From positions 64,001 to 95,808 of the IMG/VR virus record IMGVR_UViG_3300017963_000220: a stretch of 31,808 nucleotides of DNA, one strand, 5' to 3'. The notes beneath the pieces are model-generated. The model worked only from the letters and a program-made list of their open reading frames with translations, did not search any database and had not been told where the DNA came from. Every line of letters begins with the position of its first letter. Positions within the stretch are counted from its first letter, which is position 1. Positions 2,014 to 12,956 of this stretch are shown here, in pieces. This DNA is from a virus. The translations under genes and the position numbers were made by a program.

Positions 2014-2895
2014 ATGACAGAACAGTACGACTTGATATGCTCGTTCGACGAGATTGGGATGTTGAAAGGTGGGGAAGGCGACACCATGCGTATGTATGGC
2101 TGGGCGTCGACACCGGCTCTCGACTCCGATCAAGAGCGAGTGGTACAAGAGGGTCTGGATACGACTGACCTGCTCAACAAGGGATGGATCAATTGGAACC
2201 ATCAGTCTGAGAAGATCATCGGTATTCCCAAGGTCGCTGAGGTACGTGACAGAGGTCAAGGTCTTGGCAAAGGTTTGTATACCGAATTCGATCTCCTCAA
2301 AGACCACAGCCTGGCTCAAGAGGTGTGGACGCTCAGTAAGTCCCTCAAAGGTACGGGGCGTAGTCTGGGTCTCTCACTCGAGGGCAAGAAACAGTTGGTC
2401 GATAAGGGGAAGATCGTCAAAGCCAAGGTGATGAACATCGCTGTGTGTCCCAACCCACGCAACCCTGAAGCCACTGTCGAAGCCTTGGTAAAGGCCATAG
2501 TCCACGGCGAGGAAAACGCCGCTGAGAAGTTTTCACCTATCACTCTCGCAAAGAATGAGATGGTGGAACGGATCGGTGACATTGTGGCGGGAGCCATGAC
2601 CAAAGCCTTGGACGCTGGGCATGATATCAGTGGAACTACTCAGACGGGTGGAGCCGCTGTCCGGAAGGAAGAGCTTGAAGCTATCCCGGAGAAAGAGCTG
2701 GTCGCTCTACCTCCAGACCACAGCATCCGAACACATCATCTCAACGGTGACTTGAACACAATCCGAAACGCTATCGCTGGTGTTGCTGATCAACGCGATG
2801 GAAAACTCACAAAAGCCGAAGCGGCGCTAGTCACATTCCTCGTGACCGAGGACACTGGGCTGGTGGATTGCTTCAGAGTATTTGGTCTCGTCTAA
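2014..2895 (+). CDS. Prohead maturation protease, XkdF-like
   Basis: A 293-aa serine protease that trims scaffold and capsid during head maturation. The start at 2014 is preferred over the upstream in-frame ATG at 1942 because AAGAGG lies at 2003-2008 and the upstream start would overlap the previous gene. The N-terminal 150 residues carry the herpes-type/HK97-type prohead protease pattern: a MYGWASTPALDSDQ strand, the likely catalytic His63 in NWNHQ, and the likely catalytic Ser121 in LGLSLEG (Ser117 is the alternative), followed by an NIAVCPNPRNPEA strand. Position between an upstream head gene and the scaffold and capsid genes fits. The C-terminal part is not protease core. Residues 197-222 closely match the major capsid protein N-terminus (see findings), suggesting a docking or self-processing segment. 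The family call is strong; exact catalytic residues are inferred. Confidence 0.85.
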   Translation: MTEQYDLICSFDEIGMLKGGEGDTMRMYGWASTPALDSDQERVVQEGLDTTDLLNKGWINWNHQSEKIIGIPKVAEVRDRGQGLGKGLYTEFDLLKDHSLAQEVWTLSKSLKGTGRSLGLSLEGKKQLVDKGKIVKAKVMNIAVCPNPRNPEATVEALVKAIVHGEENAAEKFSPITLAKNEMVERIGDIVAGAMTKALDAGHDISGTTQTGGAAVRKEELEAIPEKELVALPPDHSIRTHHLNGDLNTIRNAIAGVADQRDGKLTKAEAALVTFLVTEDTGLVDCFRVFGLV

Positions 2896-2919
2896 CAGCG
2901 AGACCCTCGGAGGAAAATA

Positions 2920-3573
2920 ATGACTGGAAAGAACGTGGCCAACAGCATCGACGACGCCATGGACCTTCTCAAAGCCAGTACGGACGACGAGGAGATCGAA
3001 GAGGAAGAAGAAGAGGAAGAGGAAGACACCAAGAAGGCAGTCGAACTTGACCTCATGAAGGCTGAAGACGACGTTGAGATCGCTCAACTCGTCCAGGCTG
3101 ACGACTTCATGATGGCTCTCGCACAGAACCAGGACGTGAACACAGAGCGGCTTACGAAGGCTGTCGAGGGGAACCTCAACGCTACCTACGCCGTCTTGGA
3201 CTTCCTGAAGGCCCAGCAAGATGAGATCAAGGAACTCCGGGAAGAGGTGACCTCTCTGAAGGCTACGCCCCAACCCGCGAAAGCCGCGATCAGCAAGGCG
3301 GAAGCCGATCAGCTCTCGAAGGCTGTCGGAACGCCTCCTCTCGACGCTGAGATCAAGGATGTACCGCCGTCTCTCACGAAGTCGGATATCGTCAGTGTCC
3401 TCAACAGCGCTGTCGAGGCCAAGCAGGCCGATCCTATGGACGTGATCAAAGCTGAGACCGCCTTCGGTGGCGCGATGTCGATGGCTGAGATTCCGTTCAC
3501 CGATGTGGTCGCGCAGATGTCCCCTGGTGGACGGAACGCGATCAAAGACTACCTCAAAACAACTCAAGAGTAG
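2920..3573 (+). CDS. Head scaffolding protein
   Basis: A 217-aa protein with the composition expected of a scaffold. It has a run of Glu at residues 25-35, a predicted helical coiled-coil centre (around residues 85-115, containing FLKAQQDEIKELREEV) and a mixed C-terminal segment from about residue 130 that would contact the capsid. It would form the inner core of the procapsid and be degraded by the protease encoded just upstream. The start is fixed by GGAGG at 2909-2913, 24 nt after the protease stop. Codon use is biased to C/G-ending codons like the capsid gene, consistent with high expression. No catalytic motif is present. The assignment rests on acidity, coiled coil and position between protease and capsid, not on recognised homology. 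Confidence 0.7.
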   Translation: MTGKNVANSIDDAMDLLKASTDDEEIEEEEEEEEEDTKKAVELDLMKAEDDVEIAQLVQADDFMMALAQNQDVNTERLTKAVEGNLNATYAVLDFLKAQQDEIKELREEVTSLKATPQPAKAAISKAEADQLSKAVGTPPLDAEIKDVPPSLTKSDIVSVLNSAVEAKQADPMDVIKAETAFGGAMSMAEIPFTDVVAQMSPGGRNAIKDYLKTTQE

Positions 3574-3634
3574 AACCAAACAAACCCCAATTGGGCCGCG
3601 CAACAAGAAAATCCCTGATTGGGAGGAACGAACA

Positions 3635-3901
3635 ATGGAAAGAGTAGCATTTCTTCATGGTGGCGGTGGCGGTATGACCGCCGAGCGTGCCAGAGCTGAA
3701 ATTGGTGAGTCCAATCGTCTCCTCGGCGCTATGCGTCGGCGAGCGGCTGGTGGACCCGCGACAGGACAGACGGCGGACGTCTCTCGTGAGATGGCCGCCC
3801 GAGAGGTCGGACGTCTCGAGGCCCGGAACAGGATGCTTCGTAGGGTCATCGGTGGCCCGGCTCGTGCAGCGGAAGCCCGTACTGGAGCAGCCCGAGTTTG
3901 A
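3635..3901 (+). CDS. Small Arg/Ala-rich protein between scaffold and capsid
   Basis: An 88-aa protein starting at ATG 3635, 9 nt after GGGAGG (3621-3626). A longer in-frame start at 3467 would overlap the scaffold gene by more than 100 nt and lacks a ribosome binding site, so the short form is chosen. After a Gly run (residues 10-14) the chain is predicted to be helical and very basic, with repeated Arg in segments such as MRRRAAGG and EARNRMLRRV. Nothing catalytic is visible. It could be a minor head or DNA-binding internal protein, or a helper of capsid assembly. Position and strong translation signal support a real gene, but function is unknown. Confidence 0.65.
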   Translation: MERVAFLHGGGGGMTAERARAEIGESNRLLGAMRRRAAGGPATGQTADVSREMAAREVGRLEARNRMLRRVIGGPARAAEARTGAARV

Positions 3902-3914
3902 TCTGAATCAGATC
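3900..3914. promoter_or_regulatory. Perfect hairpin GATCTG-AAT-CAGATC after the 88-aa gene
   Basis: A 15-nt element with 6-bp perfect arms and a 3-nt loop begins inside the TGA stop codon (3899-3901) and ends 46 nt before the capsid start. There is no T-run after it, so it is not a standard terminator. The same 12 fixed bases recur at 19760-19774 (inside a baseplate gene) and at 31399-31413 (right-end control region), which hints at a protein-binding site or a processed RNA hairpin. Confidence 0.4.
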
Positions 3915-3960
3915 GGGTTCAAATGAAAAGAAACAGGAACAACTTTAGGAGGATTTCTCA

Positions 3961-5418
3961 ATGAGCTTTGCTGACCAGCTTGGGAGTATCCAGGGCTTCG
4001 GCGCTATGAGTGGCGACGAGTTCGAGATGCTCCGAAAAGCCATCGATTCCGGCTATGACGTCGGTGGCGATACGCAGACTGGCGGCGGAGCCTGGAGGCT
4101 GGAGTTCCTCGAGAACACGTTGGCTATTCTGACTCAACAGATGCGCCACATCTCGTTCTGGAACGACATCCCGAAGGTTCCCGCTACCTCAACCGCGATT
4201 GAGTACGCTCGTCGCTCCGCACTCGGCCTCGAGCAGGGCGGGTGGTACGCGAGTGGTGAGCTTCCGCTCTCACACGACAGCGACTACGACCGGAAGGTCG
4301 CCCTGGTGAAATTCCTCGGCGACGTTCGCGAGATCAAGATGCCTTTCCTTCTCACTCGTACCCTCGTGGATCAGCGAGCCGAGGTCACCCAGGCTGGTAC
4401 CCTTTGGCTTCTGTCCATCCTCGAGCGCTCACTGTTCCGTGGCAACGCGAAGCTGGGCGTCGGTGGGGCCGAGTTCGAGGAAATCGATGGTCTGGAGACC
4501 TTCATCTCTCGCGACGCTCCCGCAGACAACATCATCAACCTCGGTGGTTCCCCTCTCGAAGAGGGCCACATCCGAAACGCCGGTCAGGTCGTTATCGCGA
4601 ACTACGGCGTGGGTACGCACATCTACGCGCCGAGCGAGATCCTCGAGGATTACTCGGCGAGCTACCTCAAGCAGCAGTACATCCCGACCCCGGTAGCGGG
4701 TGGTGGTGTCGCCGCTGGTATGAGGGTCGACCGTCTCTACACGGCGGGTGGGGATTACCTCCTCCGTCCGCTGTTCCTCTACAAAGGCTGCACCAGAGAG
4801 CTTCCGAAGACCTCGGCTCCAACCGAGTCTCCGGCCCCCAATCCGACCGTCGCTATCGCTGGTATCCAGGCCAGCACGACTGGTCAATGGGGAACAGCTC
4901 TGGGTCTGAACGCCGCTGGTGCCGGTGCGTCCGGTTCGGTAGAGTATCAGGTCGCCTATGCCAACAAGTTCGGAGAAGCCCTAGCGGTACTCTCGAGCCC
5001 AACTTCCCAGGCTGTGACGTATGCGCAACGCGACGATCACGTCCGAATCACCATCACGAACCCGTCAGGCTTCACGCAAGCCCCGACACACTTCGTCGTA
5101 TACCGCCGAGACACCTACGCTGACGGGACCGTGAGTCCTTGGGGCCAGGTTGCACGTGTGGCTCTCGATTCGGTAGCCGCTGGCGCGTCTCAGAACTGGG
5201 ATGACGATGGCGCTCACATGCCTGGAATGGCGAAAGCCTGGTTCATGGAACTGAATCAGAACGTCATGCACGTCTCTCAGCTCCTCCCCTTCACGCGAAT
5301 CCCGCTTCCGGCTCTTACGCTGGCGGAGAGGTTCGCTCTCGTCATGTTCCTGTCCTTCGTGATGCGTATCCCGAATCGTGTCGTGGAATTCCGGAACATC
5401 GGTAGGCGTACCGTCTAA
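3961..5418 (+). CDS. Major capsid protein, HK97 fold, with Ig/FN3-like insert
   Basis: A 485-aa shell protein. The start is set by AGGAGG about 10 nt upstream. The N-terminal arm includes KAIDSGYDVGGDTQTGGGAW (residues 26-45), followed by RLEFLENTL, a pattern often seen at phage capsid N-termini. The core (about residues 55-280) has the mixed A/P-domain pattern, with features such as QMRHISFWNDIPK and GDYLLRPLFLYKG. Residues about 284-418 read as an inserted beta-sandwich of Ig or fibronectin-III type (VEYQVAYANKFGEALAVLSS, then HFVVYRRDTY). The chain returns to capsid-like sequence at AKAWFMELNQNVMHVSQLLP and ends at NIGRR. Codon bias is strong, as expected for the most abundant virion protein. 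It lies directly after protease and scaffold. Capsid assignment is secure; the insert boundaries are approximate. Confidence 0.9.
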   Translation: MSFADQLGSIQGFGAMSGDEFEMLRKAIDSGYDVGGDTQTGGGAWRLEFLENTLAILTQQMRHISFWNDIPKVPATSTAIEYARRSALGLEQGGWYASGELPLSHDSDYDRKVALVKFLGDVREIKMPFLLTRTLVDQRAEVTQAGTLWLLSILERSLFRGNAKLGVGGAEFEEIDGLETFISRDAPADNIINLGGSPLEEGHIRNAGQVVIANYGVGTHIYAPSEILEDYSASYLKQQYIPTPVAGGGVAAGMRVDRLYTAGGDYLLRPLFLYKGCTRELPKTSAPTESPAPNPTVAIAGIQASTTGQWGTALGLNAAGAGASGSVEYQVAYANKFGEALAVLSSPTSQAVTYAQRDDHVRITITNPSGFTQAPTHFVVYRRDTYADGTVSPWGQVARVALDSVAAGASQNWDDDGAHMPGMAKAWFMELNQNVMHVSQLLPFTRIPLPALTLAERFALVMFLSFVMRIPNRVVEFRNIGRRTV

Positions 5419-12151: not shown

Positions 12152-12559
12152 ATGGAAAAGAAATACAGCTTCTCGGTAGATGAGAAATCACGAATTGATG
12201 GGAAACGGTACAAGGGCACCTTCCACATGAGACGCGCCAACATAGGTGATCTGGGAGCGATCAGCGCTGCCTTGTCTCGCTTGAATCAGGGTCAACCAAT
12301 CGTCTCAGATTCATTCGAGGCGCTTCTGACCGTGGTGGCGACAATCGAGATCTGTGGAGAAGACGTTCCTAAATGGTGGCAGGCTCTCGTCGATGAGGGT
12401 GGAAATGAGTCCATCATCATTCGCGTTGGGAACGCCATGAGCAGGGAGCGTGATAAGGGACAGCCCTTTCGATCTGAAAAAGATCAATCTGAACAAACTG
12501 GCGACGGGAGCGACGTGGGCTCATCCGTCGAAAGCGAGAGCGGTACAGACGATACCTGA
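12152..12559 (+). CDS. Tail assembly chaperone, upstream frame (gpG-type)
   Basis: A 135-aa protein starting at ATG 12152 after GGAGGG (12139-12144). Longer in-frame starts lie upstream of the terminator and are rejected. It has a compact domain (YKGTFHMRRANIGDLGAISA, then FEALLTVVATIEICGEDVPK) followed by a hydrophilic Ser/Glu/Asp tail from about residue 105. In contractile and siphovirus tails such a gene sits between tube and tape measure, coats the tape measure during assembly, and is partly extended by programmed frameshifting. The adjacent ORF overlaps by 119 nt in the +1 frame, as expected for that arrangement. The polar tail, absent from the fused form, would be the non-shifted ending. 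Confidence 0.8.
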   Translation: MEKKYSFSVDEKSRIDGKRYKGTFHMRRANIGDLGAISAALSRLNQGQPIVSDSFEALLTVVATIEICGEDVPKWWQALVDEGGNESIIIRVGNAMSRERDKGQPFRSEKDQSEQTGDGSDVGSSVESESGTDDT

Positions 12560-12956
12560 TGAGTTGTTTGACGCAGCTCAGGAACAACTCACAGACAGCC
12601 ACCTAGCTCGGTACTTCTCGAAGAAGTATAGTATGCCACCACATCATCCCTTACTACAGGAGTATACCTGGGAAGAGATGCTCGTGGAGTTTGTGGCTGA
12701 CGCCATAGAAGAAGAGCGGCTCGAAGTGGGTGTAGGTGGTCGTCCAATCAAGAAGCTTACGCACAAGGGCGTTGAAGTAGTTCAGACAGGTTCCAAGGTA
12801 TTCGATGACCTTGAGATGGAGTGGGCTGACCAGGACGTAGAACCTAACGATGAAGAATTCACATTCCTGCCTCCGGAGGACGAAGACGAACTTCCGGATG
12901 GTACAGACTTGTTGGAGACGATAGGCGAACAGATGAGGAAATCAAATGCCGGGTGA
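12441..12956 (+). CDS. Tail assembly chaperone, downstream frame (gpGT-type extension)
   Basis: This frame is open from 12441 to the TGA at 12954-12956, in +1 (equally -2) register relative to the upstream chaperone. It has only a GTG at 12450 as a possible start, without a convincing ribosome binding site, so I read it as the C-terminal part of a frameshift fusion of about 267-268 residues. Its sequence has a helical section (FDAAQEQLTDSHLARYFSKK, then YTWEEMLVEFVADAIEEERL) and a very acidic C-terminus (PEDEDELPDGTDLLETIGEQ). It overlaps the tape measure start by 11 nt, matching the chaperone/tape-measure coupling of tailed phages. Independent translation from GTG 12450 is the alternative. 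Confidence 0.7.
   Translation, partial: AGSVIRDSPFDLKKINLNKLATGATWAHPSKARAVQTIPDELFDAAQEQLTDSHLARYFSKKYSMPPHHPLLQEYTWEEMLVEFVADAIEEERLEVGVGGRPIKKLTHKGVEVVQTGSKVFDDLEMEWADQDVEPNDEEFTFLPPEDEDELPDGTDLLETIGEQMRKSNAG
12464..12482 (+). other. Candidate programmed frameshift region
   Basis: Fusion of the two chaperone frames needs a shift of +1 or -2. Two candidates lie in the overlap. (a) CCC-TTT at 12464-12469: proline tRNA on CCC can re-pair with CCT after a +1 move. (b) GAAAAAG at 12476-12482: lysine tRNA on AAA (12479-12481) can move back two to AAA (12477-12479), giving AAG next. The A-run sits in the loop of a small GATCT/AGATC hairpin (12471-12485). I cannot choose between them from sequence alone. 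Confidence 0.45.

Follow-up and report, generated by a model that had tools for sequence, protein, structure and literature searches.

We describe here a head maturation protease which carries, behind its protease domain, a copy of the N-terminal arm (N-arm) of the mature major capsid protein. Both genes belong to a stretch of 31,808 nucleotides, called the window below, that covers positions 64,001 to 95,808 of a 95.8 kb virus contig, IMG/VR record IMGVR_UViG_3300017963_000220 (the protease starts at window position 2014, contig position 66014). According to our analysis essentially all of the fetched Herelleviridae phages and the majority of the metagenomic relatives keep such a copy, and it changes in step with the capsid arm of the same phage. 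We propose, at somewhat better than an even chance, that the enzyme is a self-cleaving modular protease whose arm seats it at the N-arm site in the procapsid; docking and cleavage are what we infer from the data given below.

Results

The protease gene (2014-2895, 293 residues) and the capsid gene (3961-5418, 485 residues) lie on the plus strand, as do all features discussed here. Translation of 2602-2679 gives KALDAGHDISGTTQTGGAAVRKEELE, residues 197-222 of the protease, and translation of 4036-4113 gives KAIDSGYDVGGDTQTGGGAWRLEFLE, residues 26-51 of the capsid protein, the gene starts being at 2014 and 3961; the two peptides align without gaps, with 16 of 26 residues identical. An earlier sequence-only reading of this DNA had reported the shared peptide with these positions and this count, and retranslation found it exact. 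The similarity is far above chance: the local BLOSUM62 score of protease against capsid is 83, 20,000 shuffles gave a mean of 35.7 (standard deviation 5.2) and a maximum of 77, and chance is ruled out as the source since the real score exceeds them all. Independent profile matches agree. Residues 23-70 of the window capsid protein match the arm segment of the protease profile phrog_1028 (E 0.008), and in a wider set 18 of 26 capsid proteins match this profile (best 2e-11) and 12 of 40 proteases match the capsid profile phrog_752 (best 1e-8). When the whole PDB was searched with the Kayvirus protease (E 1e-6) or the SPO1 protease (E 2e-6), the capsid N-arm was the only return. At the DNA level the two segments agree at 46 of 78 positions, and third codon positions are alike in just 9 of 26.

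The capsid propeptide would comprise residues 1-26 (3961-4038) and end in K26, judging from the homologous Kayvirus chain that begins after the aligned K24. Kayvirus-type capsid chains in PDB entries 9row, 9rox and 9roz (48 chains) start at S25, right after this lysine, and K26 and A27 are invariant in the 26 capsid proteins. Up to 445 of 468 residues are modelled for SPO1 gp6.1, a length that fits a probable cut at K23/A24 (the slash marks the bond here and below). The similarity between protease and capsid starts exactly at the P1 lysine of this maturation site, spans about 25 residues and then ends, which indicates that the protease copies the mature N-arm (capsid residues 27-51, 4039-4113, as the template; protease residues 198-222, 2605-2679, as the copy) and not the whole precursor. 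As the similarity in many relatives reaches a few residues past the 26, we take the P1 lysine plus P1' to about P25' as the meaningful unit.

A lysine followed by serine or alanine and a hydrophobic residue, K/[SA]-hydrophobic, is likely the cleavage motif of this protease family, as far as can be judged from its distribution in the sequences: it occurs at 110 sites in scaffolds where 24 are expected (z 18), is depleted in capsid bodies (11 against 21 expected) and is at chance level in protease domains. The sequence-only reading had considered a shared cleavage site, and one may go further and explain the whole segment as a mere recognition site for the protease, the longer similarity coming from an extended substrate specificity. 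The exact start at the P1 lysine and a motif clearly common to capsid, protease and scaffold speak for this, and for the first few residues the idea of a shared site stands, given the lysine start and the enrichment in scaffolds. The scaffold, however, shares with the other two proteins just this short motif and never the arm: its sites carry the first few residues, and the remaining 20 or so are found only in protease and capsid. Moreover, there is no similarity at P2-P13, the non-prime side that serine proteases usually read most, and co-variation reaches P25'. We therefore regard a pure recognition site as unlikely.

The order of modules in the protease appears to be a protease domain, a K/A site, a linker, a second K/A site, the mimic of the capsid arm and a small helical domain. 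The protease domain (residues 1-160, 2014-2493) contains D37, H63 and S121, candidate catalytic residues that are invariant across the 40 proteases, their catalytic role being assumed from the family. It is modelled with confidence at residues 21-160, and its nearest PDB folds are herpesvirus proteases; when the whole protease was submitted to Foldseek, nothing came in below E 0.001, a likely reason being the low confidence of about half the chain. At the end of the domain stands K160, invariant in the same 40 proteases, and with A161 it makes a first putative self-cleavage site that fits the motif (VEALVK/AIV, 2491-2496). The linker behind it (2494-2601) is predicted as disordered and then helical up to the second putative site, K197/A198 (GAMTK/ALDAG, 2602-2607), which is aligned to the capsid maturation site and whose lysine is kept in at least 90% of the 40 proteases. 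These motifs make self-cleavage of the protease at K160 and K197 probable. The small helical domain follows at residues about 247-290 (2752-2883; predicted local distance difference test score about 80), and this C-terminus is conserved among relatives. The arm is disordered in the model of the lone protease, as would suit a segment that takes up its fold on binding, and it is likewise of low confidence in the capsid model.

An arm that starts with a cleavage site in cis could also be an autoinhibitory pseudo-substrate, blocking the active site until assembly and then cut off. Phage proteases with a removed C-terminal propeptide do exist, an example being SPN3US gp245 (64 residues; PMC10052503). 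The model, however, places the disordered arm away from the confidently folded domain, which is weak evidence, and inhibition has no need for 25 residues that track the capsid arm; we hold this explanation to be distinctly improbable.

Two variants of this architecture were noticed among relatives. Cysteine clusters, possibly a metal-binding insert, are present in the linker between the lysine sites in L071, L081, L086, L100 and L102 (labels of loci in our set). The clade of L017, L090, L105 and L106 has long proteases (about 500-540 residues) that are apparently fused to the scaffold, with arm copies lost or degenerate, and it looks as if the scaffold fusion has replaced the anchor.

The window protease, used as a single query against viral contigs, retrieved no relatives, and the divergent proteases gave an alignment too variable to serve as query. 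A capsid alignment was used instead; 80 metagenomic loci were gathered with it, and 99 loci hold both the protease and the capsid gene. In the fetched Herelleviridae genera the protease domain is followed by a recognisable copy of the capsid N-terminus; they comprise phages of Bacillus, Lysinibacillus, Exiguobacterium, Listeria, Brochothrix, Staphylococcus, Mammaliicoccus, Enterococcus and Lactobacillus. Examples are Brochothrix phage ADU4 (protease KSMTTGYEHGGTDQTDGSALRRQSL, capsid KSMTTGYNHGGTDQFNGQALRRQSL) and LysYB1 (protease KALEAGYATTPETQVDGGALRKESLEGSLKVL, capsid KALSAGYATSPETQVNGGAFRVESLENSLKVL). A profile made from capsid N-arms alone matches the protease in 61 of the 99 loci, and in none of these 99 loci does it match an open reading frame besides protease and capsid, scaffold and neighbours included. 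When each protease was compared with the arm of its own capsid, 58 of 82 distinct protease/capsid pairs reached significance (p<0.01), and fragments such as GALVPESLE persist in many of the others. The arm copy is a feature of the family, with losses, and is not universal. A general trait of protease/capsid pairs was ruled out, since the pairs of HK97, T4 and P2 have no significant similarity; the score of the HK97 pair is equalled by 61 of 1500 shuffles and is located elsewhere, and the pairs of Bacteroides phage DAC16 and Chryseobacterium phage MA9V-3 are not significant either.

Within this family the two arms belong together phage by phage. For 40 of 46 distinct phages the own capsid arm is not outscored by any distant capsid arm, and the cross-similarity of arms tracks phylogeny (rho 0.44, a value reached in 0 of 2000 permutations). 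Per column, identity within own pairs is higher than identity across clusters at P1'-P25', with essentially no such excess at P2-P13 or beyond about P29'. In 21 non-overlapping sister pairs, at sites where the arms of the two capsids are unlike, the protease agrees with its own capsid 72 times and with that of the sister 29 times; matched double changes number 15, the swapped control having 3 (p 0.0075). One clade is without two residues in both arms.

At identical residues codon identity is not raised (346 observed, 373 expected from codon usage), which argues for co-evolution at the protein level, rules out gene conversion as the usual cause as well as recent duplication, and agrees with the sequence-only reading, where a fresh duplication had been rejected. 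An older origin, from an ancestral fusion of protease and capsid or from a partial gene duplication, is plausible because phrog_617, a family named as major head protein, contains a protease-like domain. That the arm is nothing but a functionless relic of such an event is nevertheless hardly to be expected: a relic should drift, yet the arm has been kept in genera that lie far apart and agrees with the capsid arm of its own phage in protein and not in codons.

The remaining features of the head module may be given briefly. The protease matches PF04586 (Peptidase_S78) with 26.4 bits, the cut-off being 21, and phrog_1028 with E 4.5e-42 across residues 28-222; no XkdF model is among its Pfam matches with E up to 0.1, and the XkdF-type label given by the sequence-only reading finds no support. 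The gene in the scaffold position (2920-3573, 217 residues, very acidic), so called from the gene order in SPO1, had no family match in Pfam or PHROG searches; its protein has the K/A motif at residues 39, 80 and 134. The capsid protein is assigned to phrog_752 with an HK97 fold by profile match and predicted fold, the first structural match being the SPO1 capsid gp6.1 (PDB 9vel). Herelleviridae are the closest named relatives of both protease and capsid protein, and the window has the Herelleviridae-type module order protease-scaffold-capsid, with a capsid of phrog_752. No portal gene is directly upstream of the protease; a portal homologue was found at contig 49260-50615, about 15 kb upstream.

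Some further observations concern the neighbourhood. Portal and protease are adjacent in SPO1 relatives, and a large stretch separates them in this contig. Immediately upstream of the protease is an open reading frame of 660 residues (18-2000) without a Pfam or PHROG match, and among the fetched loci only L004/L030, overlapping stretches of one contig, have a relative of it. The scaffold gene contains a long glutamate run, and similar repetitive DNA occurs again at contig 12413-12643 of the same virus. Between the scaffold and capsid genes there is likely an overlooked gene of 88 residues (3635-3901) with a strong GGAGG upstream, whose sole relative, a weak one, is in L001.

Discussion

A segment that lacks fixed structure by itself, imitates the capsid and changes along with it is most readily understood as an anchor at the N-arm binding site. 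We suggest that the protease arm would fill a site in the procapsid, belonging either to the scaffold or to an adjacent capsid subunit, that normally takes the capsid N-arm, and that such docking would build the enzyme into the inner wall of the procapsid. Once active, the protease may act at K/[SA] sites in the scaffold and the capsid propeptide as well as in its own chain, where cuts at K160 and K197 would release the catalytic domain; the arm with the helical domain may remain in the head afterwards. Docking and entry into the procapsid had been among the possibilities offered by the sequence-only reading, and they fit the 20 or so co-evolving residues that are confined to protease and capsid, the step from these residues to docking being still inferential.

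The partner of the arm could in particular be the scaffold, with the capsid N-arm and its copy binding the same scaffold surface in the procapsid, which would be a sub-case of the anchor proposed here. Coat N-arms contact the scaffold in P22 and other phages, and the gene order protease-scaffold-capsid also counts in favour. Where the long protease is apparently fused to the scaffold (MA9V-3, L090, L105, L106), the copy has been lost or has degenerated, which points the same way and concerns one clade only. We give this version a rather low probability, a real one all the same.

Several results weigh against the anchor. No copy, or none that can be recognised, is present in DAC16, MA9V-3 and the L079 clade, and the one in L002/L003, which are close to the window (capsid 61% identical), is degenerate; homologous proteases lacking the segment, which the sequence-only reading had named as a threat to its proposal, do exist in this way, and most relatives keep the segment. 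Since some relatives have lost the copy, delivery of the protease can succeed without it. A partial Mantel test that controls for protease domain and capsid body is marginal (r 0.12, a value reached in 117 of 2000 permutations), and the claim of co-evolution rests on the sister-pair and own-versus-foreign tests. Finally, there are about 8 capsid clusters only, so independent events are fewer than pairs.

The protease was detected by mass spectrometry in virions of CKA15 (29.5% coverage; PMC12282133), fRuSau02 (PMC5618024) and Bc431v3 (PMC3601020). These detections are compatible with a retained fragment and do not specify which part is retained. We may even suggest, quite tentatively and at less than even chance, that in Herelleviridae and their relatives mimicry through a co-evolving N-arm copy, which takes the place of a capsid N-arm, installs the protease in the procapsid, and that after self-cleavage the arm and the helical domain persist in the virion as an unrecognised minor component of the head.

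Little is understood of how procapsids come to contain the proper number of maturation proteases, or of how these enzymes are activated. In the relatives of SPO1, phage K and A511, which serve as model and therapy phages, a co-evolving arm copy offers a concrete and testable mechanism of recruitment; the K/[SA]-hydrophobic cleavage motif and a pair of self-cleavage sites follow from it as predictions, and it may account for the repeated detection of the protease in virions. The arm might also serve as a compact tag for loading cargo into these heads. We found no earlier description of the shared arm in the open-access literature, although our coverage was incomplete and such absence is weak evidence.

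Among known systems, the capsid-targeting sequence of T4 is a short peptide that guides internal proteins to the prohead interior and that the protease removes. It is N-terminal, about 10 residues long and common to the internal proteins, and it is not a copy of the mature capsid arm. The segment in the window, in contrast, follows the protease domain on its C-terminal side and looks like the mature arm, and the comparison of T4 gp21 with gp23 as a protease/capsid pair gave no significant similarity. Salmonella phage SPN3US has a maturation protease, gp245, with an autocleaved C-terminal propeptide and present in the head; unlike the window protease, gp245 and its relatives cleave after A-X-E and not after lysine, and the accessible part of the report describes no capsid-arm copy (PMC10052503).

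Herelleviridae proteases (SPO1 gp3.2, Kayvirus Pro and A511-like ones) have the same domain, post-domain lysine, arm copy, C-terminal domain and gene order as the window, which differs by a longer linker between the lysines, about 30% identity and a portal gene that is not adjacent. These head maturation proteases likewise belong to phrog_1028 / Peptidase_S78, and the annotations consulted for them do not mention the arm copy.

In its proposed way of working the protease can be compared with those of herpesviruses, which are also the nearest folds to the window domain. In the assemblin precursor, the major capsid protein is bound by a C-terminal extension that is removed on maturation, and self-cleavage takes place at two sites, one for release and one for maturation. 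Self-release of this type may be read from the two conserved lysine motifs that flank the linker in the window protease, where cleavage and capsid binding are putative. The herpesvirus tail, however, is the scaffold's own capsid-binding tail, whereas the window arm is a copy of the capsid N-terminus. A self-releasing protease directed to the capsid is itself of a known kind, and a finding made in one genome is widened here to a family.

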